Shown here in pieces: positions 11,854 through 37,207 of a stretch of 64,000 bases of DNA. The number at the start of each line of letters is the position of its first letter. The stretch's first letter is position 1. A model generated the notes under the pieces. That model saw only the letters and a list, made by a program, of their open reading frames with translations. It did not search any database and was not told the DNA's origin. The translations under genes and the position numbers were made by a program. The stretch comes from a bacterium (lineage in GTDB: Bacteria; Bacillota; Bacilli; Lactobacillales; Streptococcaceae). The stretch spans positions 1 to 64,000 of the forward strand of contig CAJNDF010000003.1 of assembly GCA_905221455.1 (NCBI GenBank), read 5' to 3'.

Positions 11854-11885
11854 AAATCTTCTATCTTGGGTAGGAGATTTTTTTA
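11854..11885 (+). terminator. terminator of tacL
   Basis: AAATCTTCTA and TAGGAGATTT form an imperfect stem followed by a run of seven T. Confidence 0.8.
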
Positions 11886-11899
11886 CTTGGAAAAAATAT

Positions 11900-11961
11900 T
11901 TCCAAATCGAAATAGTTGACAATTGGAATAGTAAGTATTATAATAATTTTATTCGTTTCGA
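11900..11961 (+). promoter_or_regulatory. promoter and probable MarR operator
   Basis: TTGACA (11916-11921), a 17-base spacer and TATAAT (11939-11944) form a perfect consensus promoter. Two inverted repeats overlap it: TTCCAA/TTGGAA flanks the -35, and ATCGAAA/TTTCGAT flanks the whole promoter. Such repeats around the promoter of a marR gene suggest autorepression. Confidence 0.75.
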
Positions 11962-11984
11962 TATAGAAATAAATTGGAGGTGTT

Positions 11985-12428
11985 ATGAAAGATAGTCATT
12001 TGCTAGCCCATCATATTCGTTTGTTGAATGGTCGGATTTTTCAGAAGTTACTGAGCCAAGATCCTGAGGCTCTTTATCGGGGTGAACAGGGCAAGATTTT
12101 AGCGGTTTTATGGAATAGTGAAACTGGCTGTGCAACTGCGACAGATATTGCTTTGGCGACTGGACTTGCTAATAATACTCTGACGACTATGATAAAAAAG
12201 CTAGAGGAACAAAAGCTTGTAACCGTTAGTCCGTGTGGAAAAGACAAGCGTAAGAAGTATTTAGTTTTAACGGAGTTAGGCAAGTCCCAGAAAGAAGTAG
12301 GACATCGTGTTAGTCAGAAATTGGATAGGATCTTTTACAAAGGTTTTTCAGAGGAAGAAATTCGGCAATTTGAAGCCTTTCAAGAAAGAATTTTGGCGAA
12401 TCTGAAAGAGAAGGAAAATGAGGTTTAA
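11985..12428 (+). CDS. MarR-family transcriptional regulator
   Basis: A 147-residue winged-helix regulator. The DNA-reading helix lies in ATDIALATGLANNTLTTMIK and the wing in VSPCGKDKRKKYLVLTELG. It heads the operon with the SnoaL-like protein and the ProV-ProWX transporter and is separated from the next gene by three bases. It probably represses its own promoter, which carries inverted repeats. The ligand is unknown; a Cys in the wing (SPCGKDKRKK) could be redox active, which is speculation. Confidence 0.88.
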   Translation: MKDSHLLAHHIRLLNGRIFQKLLSQDPEALYRGEQGKILAVLWNSETGCATATDIALATGLANNTLTTMIKKLEEQKLVTVSPCGKDKRKKYLVLTELGKSQKEVGHRVSQKLDRIFYKGFSEEEIRQFEAFQERILANLKEKENEV

Positions 12429-12431
12429 ATC

Positions 12432-13196
12432 ATGTCACAACAAGTGAAAAATGCTCACAACCTATACATTCATGCTATCCAAGATGGACGAGTTGCTGAG
12501 GCTCAAGCCCAGTCTGTAGGGGATACTTATATCCAACATTCGACAGGAGTGCCTGATGGAAAAGAAGGGTTTGCGGTCTTCTTTGCAAATTTCTTCGAGC
12601 GTCATCCAGAACGTCAGATTAAGATTGTCCGCACTATTGAGGATGGCAATCTGGTCTTTGTTCATGTTCATCAATATCTGAATGGTGGGGAAGCTCAGTG
12701 GGTGACGACGGATACTTTCCGTGCAGATGAGAATGGACGTATCGTGGAGCATTGGGACGTTATTGACTACTATCGAACGCCTGAAAATGGTCAATTAGAC
12801 CAGATTTTTGGAGATTTTGAAATAACGGATTTGGATAAGACAGCAGAAAATAAAAAGTTGGTTCGCCGTTTCTTGACAGAAATTTTCCAAAATGGGGAAC
12901 TGGAGCAGTGGAGTGATTATGTGGCAGACGATTTGATGCAGCATAATCATGAGATTGGCCAAGGAAGTGTTGCTTATAAAAACTATGTGGCTGAACATGG
13001 TGTCACTTTTGATTTTGTTTTCCAACTCTTAGGACAAGGAAACTACGTAGTTAGCTATGGTCAGGCTCAGATTGATGACGTTGCTTATGCCCAGTACGAT
13101 ATCTTTCGTCTAGAAAATGGGAAAATTGCGGAGCATTGGGATAATAAAGAAGTTATGCCTAAGGTTGAAGATTTGACCAACCGAGGAAAGTTTTAA
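12432..13196 (+). CDS. SnoaL-like (NTF2-fold) protein, two repeats
   Basis: A 254-residue protein made of two similar halves. YIQHSTGVPDGKEG and RIVEHWDVID in the first half match LMQHNHEIGQG and KIAEHWDNKEV in the second. This is the SnoaL / NTF2-like fold used by many small-molecule isomerases and hydrolases; no specific reaction can be inferred. It has no signal peptide. It is translated right after marR and 14 bases before proV, which ties it to whatever the MarR protein senses. Confidence 0.8.
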   Translation: MSQQVKNAHNLYIHAIQDGRVAEAQAQSVGDTYIQHSTGVPDGKEGFAVFFANFFERHPERQIKIVRTIEDGNLVFVHVHQYLNGGEAQWVTTDTFRADENGRIVEHWDVIDYYRTPENGQLDQIFGDFEITDLDKTAENKKLVRRFLTEIFQNGELEQWSDYVADDLMQHNHEIGQGSVAYKNYVAEHGVTFDFVFQLLGQGNYVVSYGQAQIDDVAYAQYDIFRLENGKIAEHWDNKEVMPKVEDLTNRGKF

Positions 13197-13210: not shown

Positions 13211-15452
<2,242 letters not shown>

Positions 15453-15499
15453 TTTGAAAATGTCAAACTCAACTTGCTTAAACGACTATAGAAAAGAAT

Positions 15500-15527
15500 G
15501 CTCAGACAATGTCGTCTGGGCTTTTTT
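15500..15527 (+). terminator. terminator of the marR-proWX operon
   Basis: GCTCAGAC pairs with GTCTGGGC (one G:U pair) and is followed by six T. Confidence 0.9.
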
Positions 15528-15610
15528 GATATTAGAGTTACTGAATGTCTTTCAAAATGGAAAATAAGAGGAAATTTTTAGGATTTTCTAAAATTTTACT
15601 GTAAATACAC

Positions 15611-15638
15611 TTGACTATTCACAAAATAGGTGTATAAT
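15611..15638 (+). promoter_or_regulatory. promoter of the ECF operon (ancestral pnuC promoter)
   Basis: TTGACT, a 16-base spacer and TATAAT. It lies about 20 bases before the structured leader and 150 bases before the ECF S gene. Confidence 0.8.
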
Positions 15639-15659
15639 GTGTTGTGAACTAATTAACAA

Positions 15660-15763
15660 ATAAAGATTTACAGCTCATGTCGACTAAGGCTGGAAATCAT
15701 GTGTATATACAGTTCGTTATCTAATAGAGCGTTGCGTCCGAAAGTCTATCCAGAAACGGCTCT
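15660..15763 (+). ncRNA. structured leader, candidate pnuC-motif (NAD+-II) riboswitch
   Basis: The leader can form an H-type pseudoknot: CAGC (15671-15674) pairs with GCTG (15689-15692), and CATG in the loop (15676-15679) can pair with CATG (15698-15701). A second hairpin, AGAGCGTT with AACGGCTCT (15726-15763), lies just before the ribosome site AAAGGAGAAG. In streptococci a compact pseudoknot, the pnuC motif or NAD+-II riboswitch, sits in front of pnuC, and a pnuC remnant lies downstream here. The identification is inferred from position and fold, not from a consensus match. Confidence 0.5.
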
Positions 15764-15785
15764 TTAAAAACAAAAGGAGAAGATT

Positions 15786-16388
15786 ATGAAAACAGAACCG
15801 ATTCATCGTACCAGTATGTGGAAATTTAAGTTAAGTGCTGCCACCATGACTTTGATTCCCGCTGCCGTGGGGATTAACTATGTTGCCAAAGCCTTGGCGG
15901 AGGGGTTAAAGTTGCCCGTTTGGCTGGGGTCTTTGGGAACCTTTCTTACCAGCATGTTGGCTGGGCCGGTTGCCGGTGCCATTAGTGGTTTCATCAACAA
16001 CGTGATCTATGGGCTGACCTTATCACCAATTTCAACCGTGTATGCGATTACCAGCATCGGAATTGGGATTGCTGTCGGAGTTTTGCACGCCAATGGGTGG
16101 TTCTCGTCAGCGCGACGAGTATTTGTTTCTGCTATTATTATTGCCATCGTTTCAGCTGTCATTTCAACGCCACTCAACGTCATCTTTTGGGGTGGTCAGA
16201 CCGGTATCGCTTGGGGTGACTCATTGTTTGCGGTAATGGTCGCCAATCATGCACCAGTGTGGCTGGCCTCATTTATCGATGAGTTTGTCTTGGATATTTT
16301 GGATAAAGTCTGCGTGGCCTACCTGGCATTCTTCATCTATCGTCAGCTGCCGAAGCGGATGGTGCACTTCTTTAGCGATGATAAATGA
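15786..16388 (+). CDS. ECF transporter S component (substrate-binding membrane protein), substrate unknown
   Basis: A 200-residue, highly hydrophobic protein with about six membrane segments and the glycine-rich turns of ECF S components (LGSLGTFLTSMLAGPVAGAI, then SPISTVYAITSIGIGIAVG). It is the first gene of a four-gene set with EcfT and two EcfA ATPases, so the module is self-contained (group I arrangement). The substrate cannot be read from sequence. Its place behind the pnuC leader would fit a vitamin B3-type compound, which is inference only. Base composition is higher in G+C than in flanking genes, suggesting transfer, perhaps from a Lactobacillus-like donor. Confidence 0.8.
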   Translation: MKTEPIHRTSMWKFKLSAATMTLIPAAVGINYVAKALAEGLKLPVWLGSLGTFLTSMLAGPVAGAISGFINNVIYGLTLSPISTVYAITSIGIGIAVGVLHANGWFSSARRVFVSAIIIAIVSAVISTPLNVIFWGGQTGIAWGDSLFAVMVANHAPVWLASFIDEFVLDILDKVCVAYLAFFIYRQLPKRMVHFFSDDK

Positions 16389-17179
16389 TGACTGATAAAA
16401 CATTGATTTCTGGAGCGCCACGGGTCAAGCTCAAGTGGTACCAGGTGATCGATCCGATTACTAAGCTCTTGTTCATCTTGGACATGACGTTGTTGAGCTT
16501 TGCCAGTATGAATTTATTGCTTCAGGCCGGATTAATTCTTGTCGCAACACTGCTATTGTTATTTTCCAAATTGAGTTCTACCACCTTTAAGGCGCTGGGA
16601 TTCAGCTTGTTTCTGATTTGCACCATGCTGATCATCCAAGGGTTATTTTACAGTCGGAATCAAACTGTACTGTTTTCTGTGCTTGGGGTGTCGTTCTACA
16701 AAGAAGGCCTGATTTACGCCACCACTCTGGGTTGTCGAGTATTGGTGATTATTTTGACCAGTGGCTTTTTTATGGTGACCACGAGTATTTCAGAAAACGC
16801 GGCCTATTTGGAACTGTCCGGATTGTCTTATAAAACCGTCTACGTTCTGATGTCGGTGTGTTATATTTTGCCGGAAATGATGCGCAATATGCGGAAAATC
16901 CAGCAGGCACAAAAAGTTCGCGGAACCAATCCGCAAAAAACGTTGATTCAGAAATTAAAGTCAGTCCTGCCGGTTCTAATTCCATTGGTGATTAAGACCT
17001 TGGATCAATCGATGACGCGGTCGATTTCTCTCCAACTGAGAGGTTTTGATAATCTCAACCGGACTGTCAGAACCTCCCAGCGCGTGTATCGCCTGTCGCG
17101 GACGTTGCACATTGGTCTGACTGGATTGGCAATTTTATTGATTGGGTGGAAGATATGGACGAAGATAAACGGATTGTAA
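16385..17179 (+). CDS. ecfT: ECF transporter T component
   Basis: A 264-residue membrane scaffold protein of the CbiQ/EcfT family with hydrophobic N-terminal spans and a helical cytoplasmic region carrying the family A-R-G pattern (AQKVRGTNPQ near residue 178, and SLQLRGFDN near 217) that couples to the ATPases. Its ATG overlaps the S gene stop (ATGA). It shares the raised G+C content of the cassette. Confidence 0.88.
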   Translation: MMTDKTLISGAPRVKLKWYQVIDPITKLLFILDMTLLSFASMNLLLQAGLILVATLLLLFSKLSSTTFKALGFSLFLICTMLIIQGLFYSRNQTVLFSVLGVSFYKEGLIYATTLGCRVLVIILTSGFFMVTTSISENAAYLELSGLSYKTVYVLMSVCYILPEMMRNMRKIQQAQKVRGTNPQKTLIQKLKSVLPVLIPLVIKTLDQSMTRSISLQLRGFDNLNRTVRTSQRVYRLSRTLHIGLTGLAILLIGWKIWTKINGL

Positions 17180-17991
17180 TTGAAAATTTGACCACCCGTT
17201 ATCCGGGTACTGAGCAACCACAACTGCGTCAGATTAACGCGGAGGTTCATACCGGCCAGGTGGTTGGGATTATCGGGAATAGCCACTCCGGCAAATCGAC
17301 TTTGTGCCGTGTGCTGGCAGGGATCATTCCCAAAATTGTGTCTGCTGAGATTGAGGGCGATTGGCACGTGTTTGGCCAGCGAGTGTCCGACAATTGGCTC
17401 GTTTATAATGCCATGAATGGAGTTGTACTGCAAAATCCAGCTGGCCAACTAAGCGGGTTGGCAGACACGGTTGCCGATGAAATCGCCTTTGACTTGATTA
17501 ATCAGGGAATGGCTGAAGGACTGATTCAAAAACGGGTTGAAGAAGTTGCCACGCAAATGGGTCTGATTGAACAGCTGAATTTGCGTCCCGAGAGTCTTTC
17601 CGGTGGTCAGAGCCAGCGGTTGGCAATTGCCACGGCGATTGCGGCTAACCCGGCTGTTTTGATTATGGATGATCCGACCAGTCAAATGGATCCCCTTGGC
17701 CGCCGACAATTTTTCCAATGGCTGGCCCAAGTCAAAGAGACGACTGTCTTCATTGTCACCAGTGAAATTGACGATTTGTGCGAAGTCGCCGACGTTGTGT
17801 GGGTGCTGCACGAGGGTCAAATGGTAGCCCAGGGCAGGCCGGGTGAGGTGTTTAATCATTTGGCAGCTGACTGGCAGATTCCAGCCCCGACAATCCAGCA
17901 ACTTGCTCAAAAAATGGATTGGCACTTGGCTGATGGCCGGTATCCGGTGAATTACGCTGATCTGAAGGAGGTTCGTTATGCCCACAATTGA
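17155..17991 (+). CDS. ecfA1: ECF transporter ATPase A1
   Basis: A 278-residue ABC ATPase with Walker A GNSHSGKST, signature LSGGQSQRL and Walker B VLIMDDPTSQMD. The residue after the Walker B Asp is Asp, not the usual catalytic Glu, so its own site is probably weak, while its intact signature completes the partner's site. The start at 17155 (ATG after GGTGGAAGAT) is preferred over a GTG nine bases upstream; the gene overlaps ecfT. A regulatory-looking C-terminal tail follows the core. Confidence 0.88.
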   Translation: MDEDKRIVIENLTTRYPGTEQPQLRQINAEVHTGQVVGIIGNSHSGKSTLCRVLAGIIPKIVSAEIEGDWHVFGQRVSDNWLVYNAMNGVVLQNPAGQLSGLADTVADEIAFDLINQGMAEGLIQKRVEEVATQMGLIEQLNLRPESLSGGQSQRLAIATAIAANPAVLIMDDPTSQMDPLGRRQFFQWLAQVKETTVFIVTSEIDDLCEVADVVWVLHEGQMVAQGRPGEVFNHLAADWQIPAPTIQQLAQKMDWHLADGRYPVNYADLKEVRYAHN

Positions 17992-18778
17992 ACTGAGCCA
18001 CCTGACGTTCACTTATCCGGAACGGTCCTTTAGCTTGGATGTTGAAGACAAACACTTCGCCGATCCGATGGTGGCGATTGTCGGCCAAAATGGTGCCGGC
18101 AAATCAACGCTCTTCAAATTGTTGACGGGTTTGCTGACACCACAAACCGGTGTGATTAAGATCGATGGAGAAAATTTTAATGATCTTAAACCAGTCGAAA
18201 AGTTACTGAAGGTTGGGATTACTTTTCAGAATCCTGACGATCAGCTTTTCAACCCGACCGTTCAACGAGAGGTGGAGTGGAGTGTCGCGCAGGTCATGGA
18301 TGACCACGACACGATTACGAGGCGGGCTTTAGCGGCTCTAAAAAGAGTTGGCTTGGATGATAAAACAGCTGAAAGTCCATATGACCTGTCATTGTCGGAA
18401 CGCAAGCTGTTGAGCGTTGCCACAGTTTTGGCAGTGGATCCGGCGATTTATTTATTTGATGAGCCGATGATGTCGCTTGATTGGGAAAGCCGGCGCAAGT
18501 TGACCGCAATTTTCCATCAGTTGGCTGATTCGGGCCACCAAGTTGTGACCATCACCCATGACATGGATTGGGTCGCCGCCGAGTTTGAGTCGGTGTATGT
18601 TATGGAACACGGGAAGTTTGGCTTCGCCGGCAGTCCACGGGAATTGTTCAGCAATCACGAACTTGTCCAGCGAGTGGGATTACTACCACCGCGGATTATG
18701 GACATAGCGGAGTCGCTGGGTGATTCACAGACATATTTATCGGTTAATGATTATTGCCAGAAAAATCGAGATGTATAG
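17978..18778 (+). CDS. ecfA2: ECF transporter ATPase A2
   Basis: A 266-residue ABC ATPase with Walker A GQNGAGKST, Q-loop FQNPDDQLF (typical of EcfA), Walker B IYLFDEPMMSLD and switch ITHDMD. The signature is LSLSERKLL rather than LSGGQ. Paired with A1, the heterodimer would have one normal site (A2 Walker motifs with A1 signature) and one degenerate site. AAGGAGG precedes the start, inside the end of ecfA1. It is the last gene of the foreign-looking block; the pnuC relic follows within about 60 bases. Confidence 0.88.
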   Translation: MPTIELSHLTFTYPERSFSLDVEDKHFADPMVAIVGQNGAGKSTLFKLLTGLLTPQTGVIKIDGENFNDLKPVEKLLKVGITFQNPDDQLFNPTVQREVEWSVAQVMDDHDTITRRALAALKRVGLDDKTAESPYDLSLSERKLLSVATVLAVDPAIYLFDEPMMSLDWESRRKLTAIFHQLADSGHQVVTITHDMDWVAAEFESVYVMEHGKFGFAGSPRELFSNHELVQRVGLLPPRIMDIAESLGDSQTYLSVNDYCQKNRDV

Positions 18779-18789
18779 AAAAAGTCACC

Positions 18790-19160
18790 TCTGCGGGTTT
18801 TCCAGGTTGAAGGATTAACTTCAGCTTCTGGCAAGAACTCACATGGGTTGGACCAAGTATCTTTCCATCAGTGTTCTTTGGTGGTTGGCCTTTGGGTTTA
18901 TTTATCAGTCTATCGGAGCTAATCGTCCCTATCGTGATTCTATCACTGATGCGACCAATGGTGTAGGGCAAATCCTCATGACAGCTGTTTACCGTGAACA
19001 GTGGATATTCTGGGCTGCTACTAATGTCTTTTCAATCTATCTCTGGTGGGGAGAAAGCCTGCAAATTCAAGGGAAATATCTAATTTACCTAATAAATAGT
19101 CTAGTTGGATCGTATCAGTGGAGTAAGGCTGCTAAGCAGAATACTGACTTATCTAACTAG
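18790..19160 (+). pseudogene. pnuC: pnuC, truncated (nicotinamide riboside transporter remnant)
   Basis: From 18843 the frame reads GWTKYLSISVLWWLAFGFIYQ, then NRPYRDSITDATNGVGQ and YREQWIFWAATNVFSIYLWW, which is the C-terminal part of PnuC with its last membrane spans and the conserved QW-x(6)-N motif. The N-terminal half is missing. A neighbouring frame just upstream reads NFSFWQELT, so a one-base shift may also be present. There is no ribosome site before 18843. The ECF cassette stands where the lost half should be, which suggests replacement rather than simple decay. Confidence 0.8.
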
Positions 19161-27872: not shown

Positions 27873-27913
27873 TAAAATAGGCATGGCAAAAAAGACCATC
27901 CCCTCAAGCTAAC

Positions 27914-27980
27914 TTACTTATTGTTAGGTGTTCCGGCACCTTGTAGAAACGTCGTGCCAATTCACGACATAAACAAGTAA
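27914..27980 (-). ncRNA. purine (guanine-class) riboswitch aptamer
   Basis: Read leftwards: P1 TTACTTGTT/AATAAGTAA; P2 GTCGTG/CACGAC with loop AATTGG; junction J2/3 GTTTCTACA; P3 AGGTG/CACCT with loop CCGGAA; junction J3/1 AAC. The last C of J3/1 is the specificity base that selects guanine or hypoxanthine; an adenine switch has U there. With ligand, the downstream terminator forms and xpt-pbuX is turned off. Confidence 0.93.
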
Positions 27981-28020
27981 AACGATATTCAATTTTAAAT
28001 AGGCTTGCGCCAATGTTTTT

Positions 28021-36295: not shown

Positions 36296-36324
36296 TGACA
36301 AAGAAAAAACAAAGTATTAAAATA
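36296..36324 (+). promoter_or_regulatory. trp promoter
   Basis: TTGACA, a 17-base spacer and TAAAAT. It starts eight bases after the aminotransferase stop and drives the first T-box. Confidence 0.85.
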
Positions 36325-36344
36325 AGTTCAATAAATCAGAAAAG

Positions 36345-36583
36345 TAACTATTTTTGATCTTCAGGGAGCCTGTGGTGATTGTGAACAGGTGGTTGGGAGT
36401 AGTGAAAGTGGGCTGATTTGAAAAATGAATTTGAAACAATGAAAATTCGGTGCGCACACCTTACAGTGCAACTTGTTGTTAGACAAGGTAGAGATGTAAA
36501 GGGGAATGCTCCCTTTATAATTGAGGTGGCACCGCGTTACCAACGCCCTCACATGGAATTTAATTCTGTGTGTGGGCTTTTTT
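36345..36583 (+). ncRNA. T-box leader 1 (tryptophan), orphan
   Basis: The 3' part holds the T-box sequence AATTGAGGTGGCACCGCG (36519-36536) followed by a strong terminator, GCCC...GGGC with TTTTTT (36545-36583). Stem I has the distal helix CCTGT/ACAGG and a base helix ATTTTT/AAAAAT. The specifier is most likely TGG at 36409-36411, so it senses uncharged tRNA-Trp. No intact gene follows; only a BOX element and a trpB fragment stand before the second T-box. Confidence 0.88.
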
Positions 36584-36882: not shown

Positions 36883-36960
36883 CATCTCTTCATCAATGTC
36901 TCTGGTCGTGGAGACAAGGACGTGGCTGCGATTGCAGACTACCTAGAAGTTAAAAAATAA
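36883..36960 (+). pseudogene. trpB: trpB C-terminal fragment (relic)
   Basis: The frame reads [20 protein letters not shown], then LEVKK and stop. SGRGDKDV is the C-terminal signature of the tryptophan synthase beta chain. It is not a copy of the trpB at 41.5 kb, which reads [20 protein letters not shown]. The fragment has no start or ribosome site. It lies between two Trp T-boxes and so looks like the last trace of an earlier trp gene behind T-box 1. Confidence 0.8.
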
Positions 36961-36961
36961 T

Positions 36962-37207
36962 AGATGGAAAAATTACAGTTATTTCTTTCCCAGAGAGCTT
37001 GTGGTTGCTGGAAACAAGCAGAGAAAGTTGTAAGGTTGGGTCCATCTGAAACAAGAGAAGAAAACATAATTCTCAAGGGAGTGCCCTTTATCGCACAGCC
37101 TGTTACAGGAAGATTCTGAGACAGGAATGAGAGATAGGAGAAATCCTATAATTGAGGTGGCACCGCGAATTTCGTCCTCACGCAAGTTATTTTGCGTGGG
37201 GATTTTT
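36962..37207 (+). ncRNA. T-box leader 2 (tryptophan), of trpE
   Basis: The stem I base AGATGGA (36962-36968) pairs with TCCATCT (37041-37047). Just before the 3' strand stands TGG (37037-37039), the tryptophan specifier. The T-box sequence AATTGAGGTGGCACCGCG lies at 37150-37167, and the terminator CCTCACGCAA/TTGCGTGGGG with TTTTT at 37176-37207. Uncharged tRNA-Trp would favour the antiterminator and expression of trpEGDCFBA. Confidence 0.92.

Follow-up and report, generated by a model that had tools for sequence, protein, structure and literature searches.

The DNA considered here is a 64,000-nucleotide stretch (the window) of contig CAJNDF010000003.1 (assembly GCA_905221455.1), from a bacterium of the Streptococcaceae, and its subject is an operon for an energy-coupling factor (ECF) transporter that has taken the place of pnuC, the gene for a nicotinamide riboside (NR) transporter. 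The operon (15786-18778) is intact and comprises four overlapping open reading frames (ORFs) encoding an S component, a T component and two ATPases, A1 and A2 (Table 1). An earlier reading of the letters alone (the sequence-only reading) had placed these genes between a leader of the pnuC type and a C-terminal remnant of pnuC, and this arrangement is borne out by the ORFs, by Pfam and NCBIfam matches and by alignment with the intact pnuC of another locus, L059. The S protein gave no match in a Pfam scan and no relative among solved structures in a sequence search; its predicted model has the fold of an ECF S component. The nearest curated model of S, that of the CD3073 family (NCBIfam NF045596), scores 91.5 bits, below its cutoff of 180. 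Judged by its gene content, with S, T and two ATPases encoded together, the operon is of the dedicated (group I) ECF type.

Table 1. Features of the pnuC place in the window, with the evidence for each
Feature	Position	Strand	Evidence
Putative NiaR-operator-like site, TTTTACTGTAAATACACTTGAC	15594..15615	+	20 of 22 letters as in the S. pneumoniae D39 pnuC operator (counted by eye)
Sigma-70-type promoter	15611..15638 (TTGACT 15611-15616, TATAAT 15633-15638)	+	Read from the letters; intact pnuC leaders similar
Predicted NAD+-II riboswitch aptamer; 3' strand is the ribosome-binding site	15726..15780	+	Model R1, 78.2 bits, E 2.9e-15
Left joint, nine nucleotides common to pnuC leader and plasmids, AAAGGAGAA	15773..15781	+	Side-by-side comparison of L059 pnuC, window, pNZ4000 and L. 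plantarum plasmid
ECF S component, substrate-binding membrane protein, 200 aa	15786..16388	+	Fold of predicted model
ECF T component, 263 aa	16388..17179 (start in ORF list, 16385)	+	PF02361 CbiQ, E 3.6e-22
ECF ATPase A1	17155..17991	+	PF00005 ABC_tran; best NCBIfam model TIGR04520 (ECF_ATPase_1), below cutoff
ECF ATPase A2	17978..18778	+	PF00005 ABC_tran; best NCBIfam model TIGR04521 (ECF_ATPase_2), below cutoff
Plasmid-derived tail 3' of A2, ending in GGGT common with pnuC	18779..18848	+	Plasmid identity and joint alignment
pnuC 3' remnant	18845..19160	+	PF04973, TIGR01528; C-terminal half

The leader in front of the S gene is that of pnuC itself and, more exactly than the sequence-only reading put it, a predicted riboswitch of the class known as nicotinamide adenine dinucleotide (NAD)+-II. 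This motif occurs in Streptococcus, binds NAD+, nicotinamide mononucleotide (NMN) and NR, and holds its ribosome-binding site within a pseudoknot (PMC7749635). R1, a covariance model built only from 15 pnuC-led leaders, recovers the aptamer at 76-88 bits in all but one of 16 streptococcal ECF loci, the sole miss being L034, where the leader is lost. Of the 16 lactobacillus, plasmid or other-S loci searched alongside, it recovers none; four additional matches, with E values of 0.17-0.69, appear to be due to chance. When the leader of the window is compared with 30 pnuC loci (L058-L087), 18 align from 15600 to at least 15781 at 90-95% identity, and in the remaining 12 the alignment is limited to the last 60 nucleotides (nt), at 87%. 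The bases C5, G33, C46, C10, A49 and A53, which have been assigned to two ligand sites (PMC10085692), are all intact by eye, and the conserved aptamer core, P1 and the A-rich strand are all present. Both pseudoknot strands, UCC and GGA, can also be found by eye, the strand with the ribosome-binding site having been kept by the joint. The identity of the aptamer draws on the literature and on R1: Rfam, searched over the whole window at the gathering threshold and over 15450-15850 at E <= 1, reported no riboswitch in the leader, and the published fold did not emerge when the 55 nt of the aptamer were folded freely (z 0.86 and -0.26), a result that may be expected of a pseudoknot held by its ligand and that speaks neither for nor against the assignment. 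Upstream of the aptamer lies a putative NiaR operator, whose counterpart in the D39 pnuC promoter is the site that was mutated in an earlier study (PMC5343564); with an operator-like site in its promoter, the leader has the mark of a member of the NiaR regulon. Separately, two pnuC-led leaders (L140 and L141, from genomes G240 and G141) carry A at the position numbered G33, which belongs to ligand site 1 and is G in the 13 other leaders of the alignment, and show an in-frame TAA near the pnuC start.

At the left edge of the cassette, the nine nucleotides of the joint are a Shine-Dalgarno sequence shared by both partners and at the same time the last strand of the aptamer, so that the riboswitch was kept whole. 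On the right, the first 64 nt behind A2 (18779-18842) are 100% identical to three lactococcal plasmids and 98.4% identical to an L. plantarum plasmid, and the joint falls within the shared GGGT (18845-18848). From 18842 to 19160 the sequence (319 nt) corresponds to nt 492-810 of the 810-nt L059 pnuC at 91% identity; the first 491 nt are therefore gone, in agreement with the earlier statement that the first half of the gene is missing, and the ORF that now covers the remnant (18843-19160) takes its ATG from plasmid DNA. In L001 and L017 pnuC resumes at nt 292, elsewhere at nt 301, 394, 428, 606, 731 or 733, and in some loci no remnant of it was found. Such varied points of resumption are compatible with a single replacement followed by differing deletions; pnuC and the plasmid scraps have been trimmed unequally from strain to strain.

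That the ECF set is foreign, as the sequence-only reading had held on grounds of composition, is upheld on other evidence. Six plasmid records, five from Lactococcus (including pNZ4000) and one from L. plantarum, match the 3,057-nt cassette at 98.4-98.6% identity; in five of the six at least 80% of the cassette lies in one place, and the sixth record ends inside it. The stated sources are dairy or cheese for two records and Homo sapiens for one, with none stated for three, and the cassette was not found in a phage collection. In a tree of S proteins, from which the relative L210 is absent, the streptococcal and plasmid copies nest inside Lactobacillaceae, not with a streptococcal core as the earlier reading would have required of a native set. 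The G+C content at third codon positions (GC3) of the four genes, 52-57% against 39.2 +/- 8.2% (maximum 57.4%) in the 46 remaining window ORFs that reach 200 aa, is suggestive only; the transfer is settled by the plasmid match and not by GC3. Behind the cassette in L001 lies an ORF (11856-12551) in which, according to Pfam, part of an IS6-type transposase is fused to the C-terminal end of a lactococcal RepB, a plasmid scrap within a streptococcal chromosome; a closely similar ORF stands behind the cassette in L017 (9713-10408), and the DNA there resembles plasmids that carry repB, hsdS and ISS1 annotations. Among 14 chosen streptococcal cassettes the mutual difference is 0.4-1.9%, while the opuB flank, where it could be aligned, is 76-95% identical to that of the window, which indicates that the cassette moved between species lately. 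The adjoining leader tends toward the type of the recipient, and this suggests that the cassette spread by homologous exchange, the crossovers falling within the aptamer or ahead of it.

In a survey of 284 Streptococcus genomes, the aptamer pattern was present in 84, once in each. Directly behind it stands the ECF S gene in 42 (one a degraded copy, G080), a near-full pnuC, meaning one with no stop within the matched part, in 40 and something else in two, namely G136, where the pnuC start is readable, and G186, a three-mismatch match at an unrelated place. G240 and G141 are among the 40 and carry their TAA shortly after the pnuC start codon, so that a near-full pnuC need not be a working one. 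Taken from the side of the S gene, the aptamer immediately precedes that gene in 41 of the 42 genomes whose S protein is 87% or more identical, the exception being G107, which has a deletion there; S is full length in 40 of these 42, being frameshifted in G012 (locus L038) and without a start in G107. The proposed takeover of the pnuC place is supported, and the cassette is by now spread across many Streptococcus species. The sequence-only reading would have counted as a refutation any relatives with an intact pnuC and this ECF set side by side at another place. None of the 284 genomes has both the cassette and a near-full riboswitch-led pnuC. One correction bears on that condition: many cassette strains retain a second, distinct intact pnuC elsewhere, often beside a nadR-like gene where coordinates could be compared. 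In 13 of the 42 cassette genomes no intact PnuC was found, although these assemblies may be incomplete.

The promoters of the lactobacillus copies carry a different element. Among 17 lactobacillus ECF loci, 16 were scored (the fragment L039 was left out), some of them near-copies of one another, and 14 of them have a best site that agrees with the palindrome TAAAAGTA-N5-TACTTTTA at 14-16 of its 16 fixed letters; 12 of those 14 have a second site of the same quality. The L. plantarum plasmid holds two perfect copies, and the three lactococcal plasmid loci tested hold none. Of 301 Lactobacillaceae genomes, 27 carry the exact palindrome, at 34 sites in all, and two carry the reversed control. The next gene is this ECF S gene at nine sites, a major facilitator superfamily (MFS) gene that we take to be niaP at 15, a FolT-family ECF S gene at three, pncB at two, nadB at one, an isochorismatase-family gene at one, and another or no clear gene at three; at 14 of the 15 MFS sites nadC follows. 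The NrtR winged helix is present in 26 of the 27 palindrome genomes and in 11 of 27 picked palindrome-free genomes (p 1.5e-5, kinship ignored), and in seven genomes the NrtR gene lies 40-105 nt from the palindrome. NrtR is known to repress genes of NAD salvage (PMC12735969). A putative operator common to NAD genes and co-occurring with NrtR makes the lactobacillus operon, by its sequence context, a predicted member of the NrtR regulon; the palindrome of these copies is the one that accompanies nrtR, niaP-like-nadC and pncB. Two other candidate regulators were rejected: NiaR, whose 3H domain is found in only three of the 27 palindrome genomes, and a TetR gene beside the niaP-like gene of L160, a homologue of which turned up at no more than that one of 15 such sites tried. 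As a separate observation, the FolT-family S genes directly behind the palindrome (L155, L164 and L167, all Lactobacillaceae) possibly encode niacin-type S components.

A further indication of substrate comes from the relatives of S. Those nearest to it outside Lactobacillaceae are encoded with nucleoside phosphorylases, which were seen in six of six fetched Streptococcus loci (S 43-51% identical) and in L203 and L205; the phosphorylase of L093 is split across two frames, and that of L204 lies downstream (3'). More distant relatives (L199, L202 and L210) adjoin inosine-uridine nucleoside hydrolases. Among CD3073 members, several that score above the cutoff adjoin a different conserved gene. 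In other Bacillota (L186-L193), a CD3073-type S gene repeatedly has as its neighbour a gene whose conserved product is some 165-180 aa long. Two of these products gave no Pfam match, and no argument is based on the label thiouracil desulfurase (TudS) applied to such neighbours.

Two unrelated NAD controls and the link to nucleosides argue for an importer of an NAD precursor, and since NR is at once an NAD precursor and a nucleoside it is preferred over nicotinic acid and nicotinamide. We consider it probable that the operon is an ATP-driven NAD-precursor importer, most likely for NR, that came from a plasmid of lactic acid bacteria and was wired into streptococcal NAD feedback; the 'same or a related vitamin' of the sequence-only reading would thereby narrow to an NAD precursor, probably NR. 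The wiring is judged from sequence likeness, and ligand binding, repression and transport are accordingly described as expected behaviour. In outline, a plasmid S-T-A1-A2 segment was joined at the nine-nucleotide Shine-Dalgarno sequence to the pnuC promoter and riboswitch, with removal of the front of pnuC. When NAD+, NMN and NR are low, the aptamer would be open and the ribosome-binding site free, and the S gene and the operon would be translated. S would load the precursor outside, and the T-A1-A2 motor would carry it through at the expense of ATP, a drive that could operate against a gradient, unlike the PnuC channel. Internal NR would be phosphorylated by a NadR-like enzyme where one is present, and otherwise split by nucleoside phosphorylase and reused via nicotinamide. 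With a full NAD pool the riboswitch would close, and NiaR at the promoter would repress the operon. We lean slightly towards a wider account, in which this is the first ECF transporter for NR, within a broader and undescribed family of nucleoside-importing ECF transporters, and in which it started out in the lactobacillus NrtR regulon, moved on to lactococcal-type plasmids and from there reached streptococci, where one microhomology joint placed it under an RNA sensor of NAD and where it now holds half of the aptamer places in the genomes surveyed.

Several observations weigh against an NR importer under intact NAD control. The aptamer of the window has A in place of C30 (position 15755, at the foot of P1a), a change unique among the leaders compared, in the others of which C30 is nearly invariant; the switch of this strain may be weakened, and ligand-dependent assembly has been reported for a form lacking P1a (PMC10085692). 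Two of the 16 lactobacillus loci (L032 and L033) have no operator, and in the eight lactobacillus loci with ORFs listed no NAD gene was recognized beside the operon. The best NCBIfam model of the presumed niaP gene is an aromatic-acid MFS family, below cutoff, and co-regulation with nadC and pncB would suit nicotinic acid equally well. Among the 27 loci L186-L212, which include two copies of the present operon, just six have a nucleoside enzyme nearby, and the relatives with such links are about 27-52% identical to S and may differ in substrate. A NadR-like gene was found neither in six of 20 cassette genomes searched nor in three Lentilactobacillus genomes, and no NadR match in 40 genomes reached the model cutoff; NadR as a universal partner is unsupported, and where it is missing NR would need to be split instead of phosphorylated. 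Broken copies also exist: L038, with a one-base shift in S and no separate breaks in T, A1 or A2, L034, in which the start of S is deleted, and the degraded G080.

Some of these points lend themselves to other explanations. That a different NAD precursor is imported (nicotinic acid, nicotinamide, nicotinic acid riboside or quinolinate) is unlikely; the lactobacillus operators are shared with nadC, pncB and FolT-family S genes, which act in pathways that use pyridine acids, and the three Lentilactobacillus genomes without a NadR-like gene fit it, but relatives of S are encoded with nucleoside phosphorylases and hydrolases, and the gene displaced in streptococci was that of an NR-type transporter. 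The operon could instead be a general nucleoside importer, for example of uridine or inosine, that owes its NAD controls to inheritance or to accident. Two phosphorylases that were scanned have uridine phosphorylase as their top models, below cutoff, and three relatives adjoin hydrolases of the inosine-uridine type; against this, the same operon stands under two independent NAD controls, of the NrtR type in lactobacilli and with NAD+-II and NiaR in streptococci, and we regard such an importer as improbable. Least credible, with very little expectation attached to it, is that the cassette is a hitch-hiking plasmid scrap without present use in streptococci. The IS6-type and repB pieces behind it in L001 and L017, their likeness to plasmids with repB, hsdS and ISS1, and the broken copies would all suit a scrap. 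However, of 22 streptococcal copies tested (a set that excludes L034) 21 keep every one of the four frames open, as do three plasmid copies, while the pnuC remnant has been variously trimmed; the ratio of nonsynonymous to synonymous change (dN/dS) among the 14 chosen streptococcal copies is 0.31-0.47, and the near-constant length of S and position of the aptamer in the survey also speak for use. An importer of an NAD precursor, most likely NR, remains the explanation that we prefer.

PnuC is a single channel-like protein, in contrast to the four-protein, ATP-driven complex that displaced it under the same riboswitch and promoter and presumably for the same job. The leader described here resembles the published NAD+-II riboswitch in aptamer, placement of the ribosome-binding site, genus and promoter (PMC7749635; PMC10085692). 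As published, that class goes almost entirely with pnuC; in the window, as in half of the 84 aptamer places, an ECF S gene follows. The paper that first described the motif also reports, for some copies, an association with a 'hypothetical' gene that it leaves unexplained and that in most cases comes with a transposase (PMC7749635); this may be the present S gene. Another relevant system is NiaX, a predicted niacin S component of the NiaR regulon (PMC5343564), which resembles the S protein of the operon in being an ECF S component under NAD-linked control. Unlike NiaX, the operon brings its own T component and ATPases, and the palindrome-linked FolT-family S proteins, presumed to be niacin-type, fall on a far branch of the S tree. 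Open-access searches, judged from listings and from passages of some papers, turned up neither the replacement of pnuC, of which the sequence-only reading knew no description, nor an ECF transporter for NR or for nucleosides, nor this ECF operon as a member of the NrtR regulon, and the operon is not described in passages of two papers that mention pNZ4000. Taken singly, ECF transporters, NAD+-II, NiaR and NrtR are all established; what these searches did not yield is the replacement, the wide use of the riboswitch class by an ECF operon or the assignment to NR or nucleosides. An orphan family of ECF S components thereby gains a concrete and testable substrate, and the NAD+-II class, now seen before two unrelated importers, offers an account of its 'hypothetical' neighbour. 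The locus also shows plainly how, in nature, a single joint has moved an uptake system carried on a plasmid from one NAD control to another. Should NR be the substrate, the operon would be relevant, too, to the way in which these streptococci draw an NAD precursor from their environment.

Elsewhere in the window, a dense run of 17 tRNA genes (81-1584, + strand) is followed by an Srn266 RNA (1654-1750), a purine riboswitch aptamer lies at 27901-27996 on the - strand, and two T-box leaders stand about 400 nt apart on the + strand (36322-36553 and 36957-37182).

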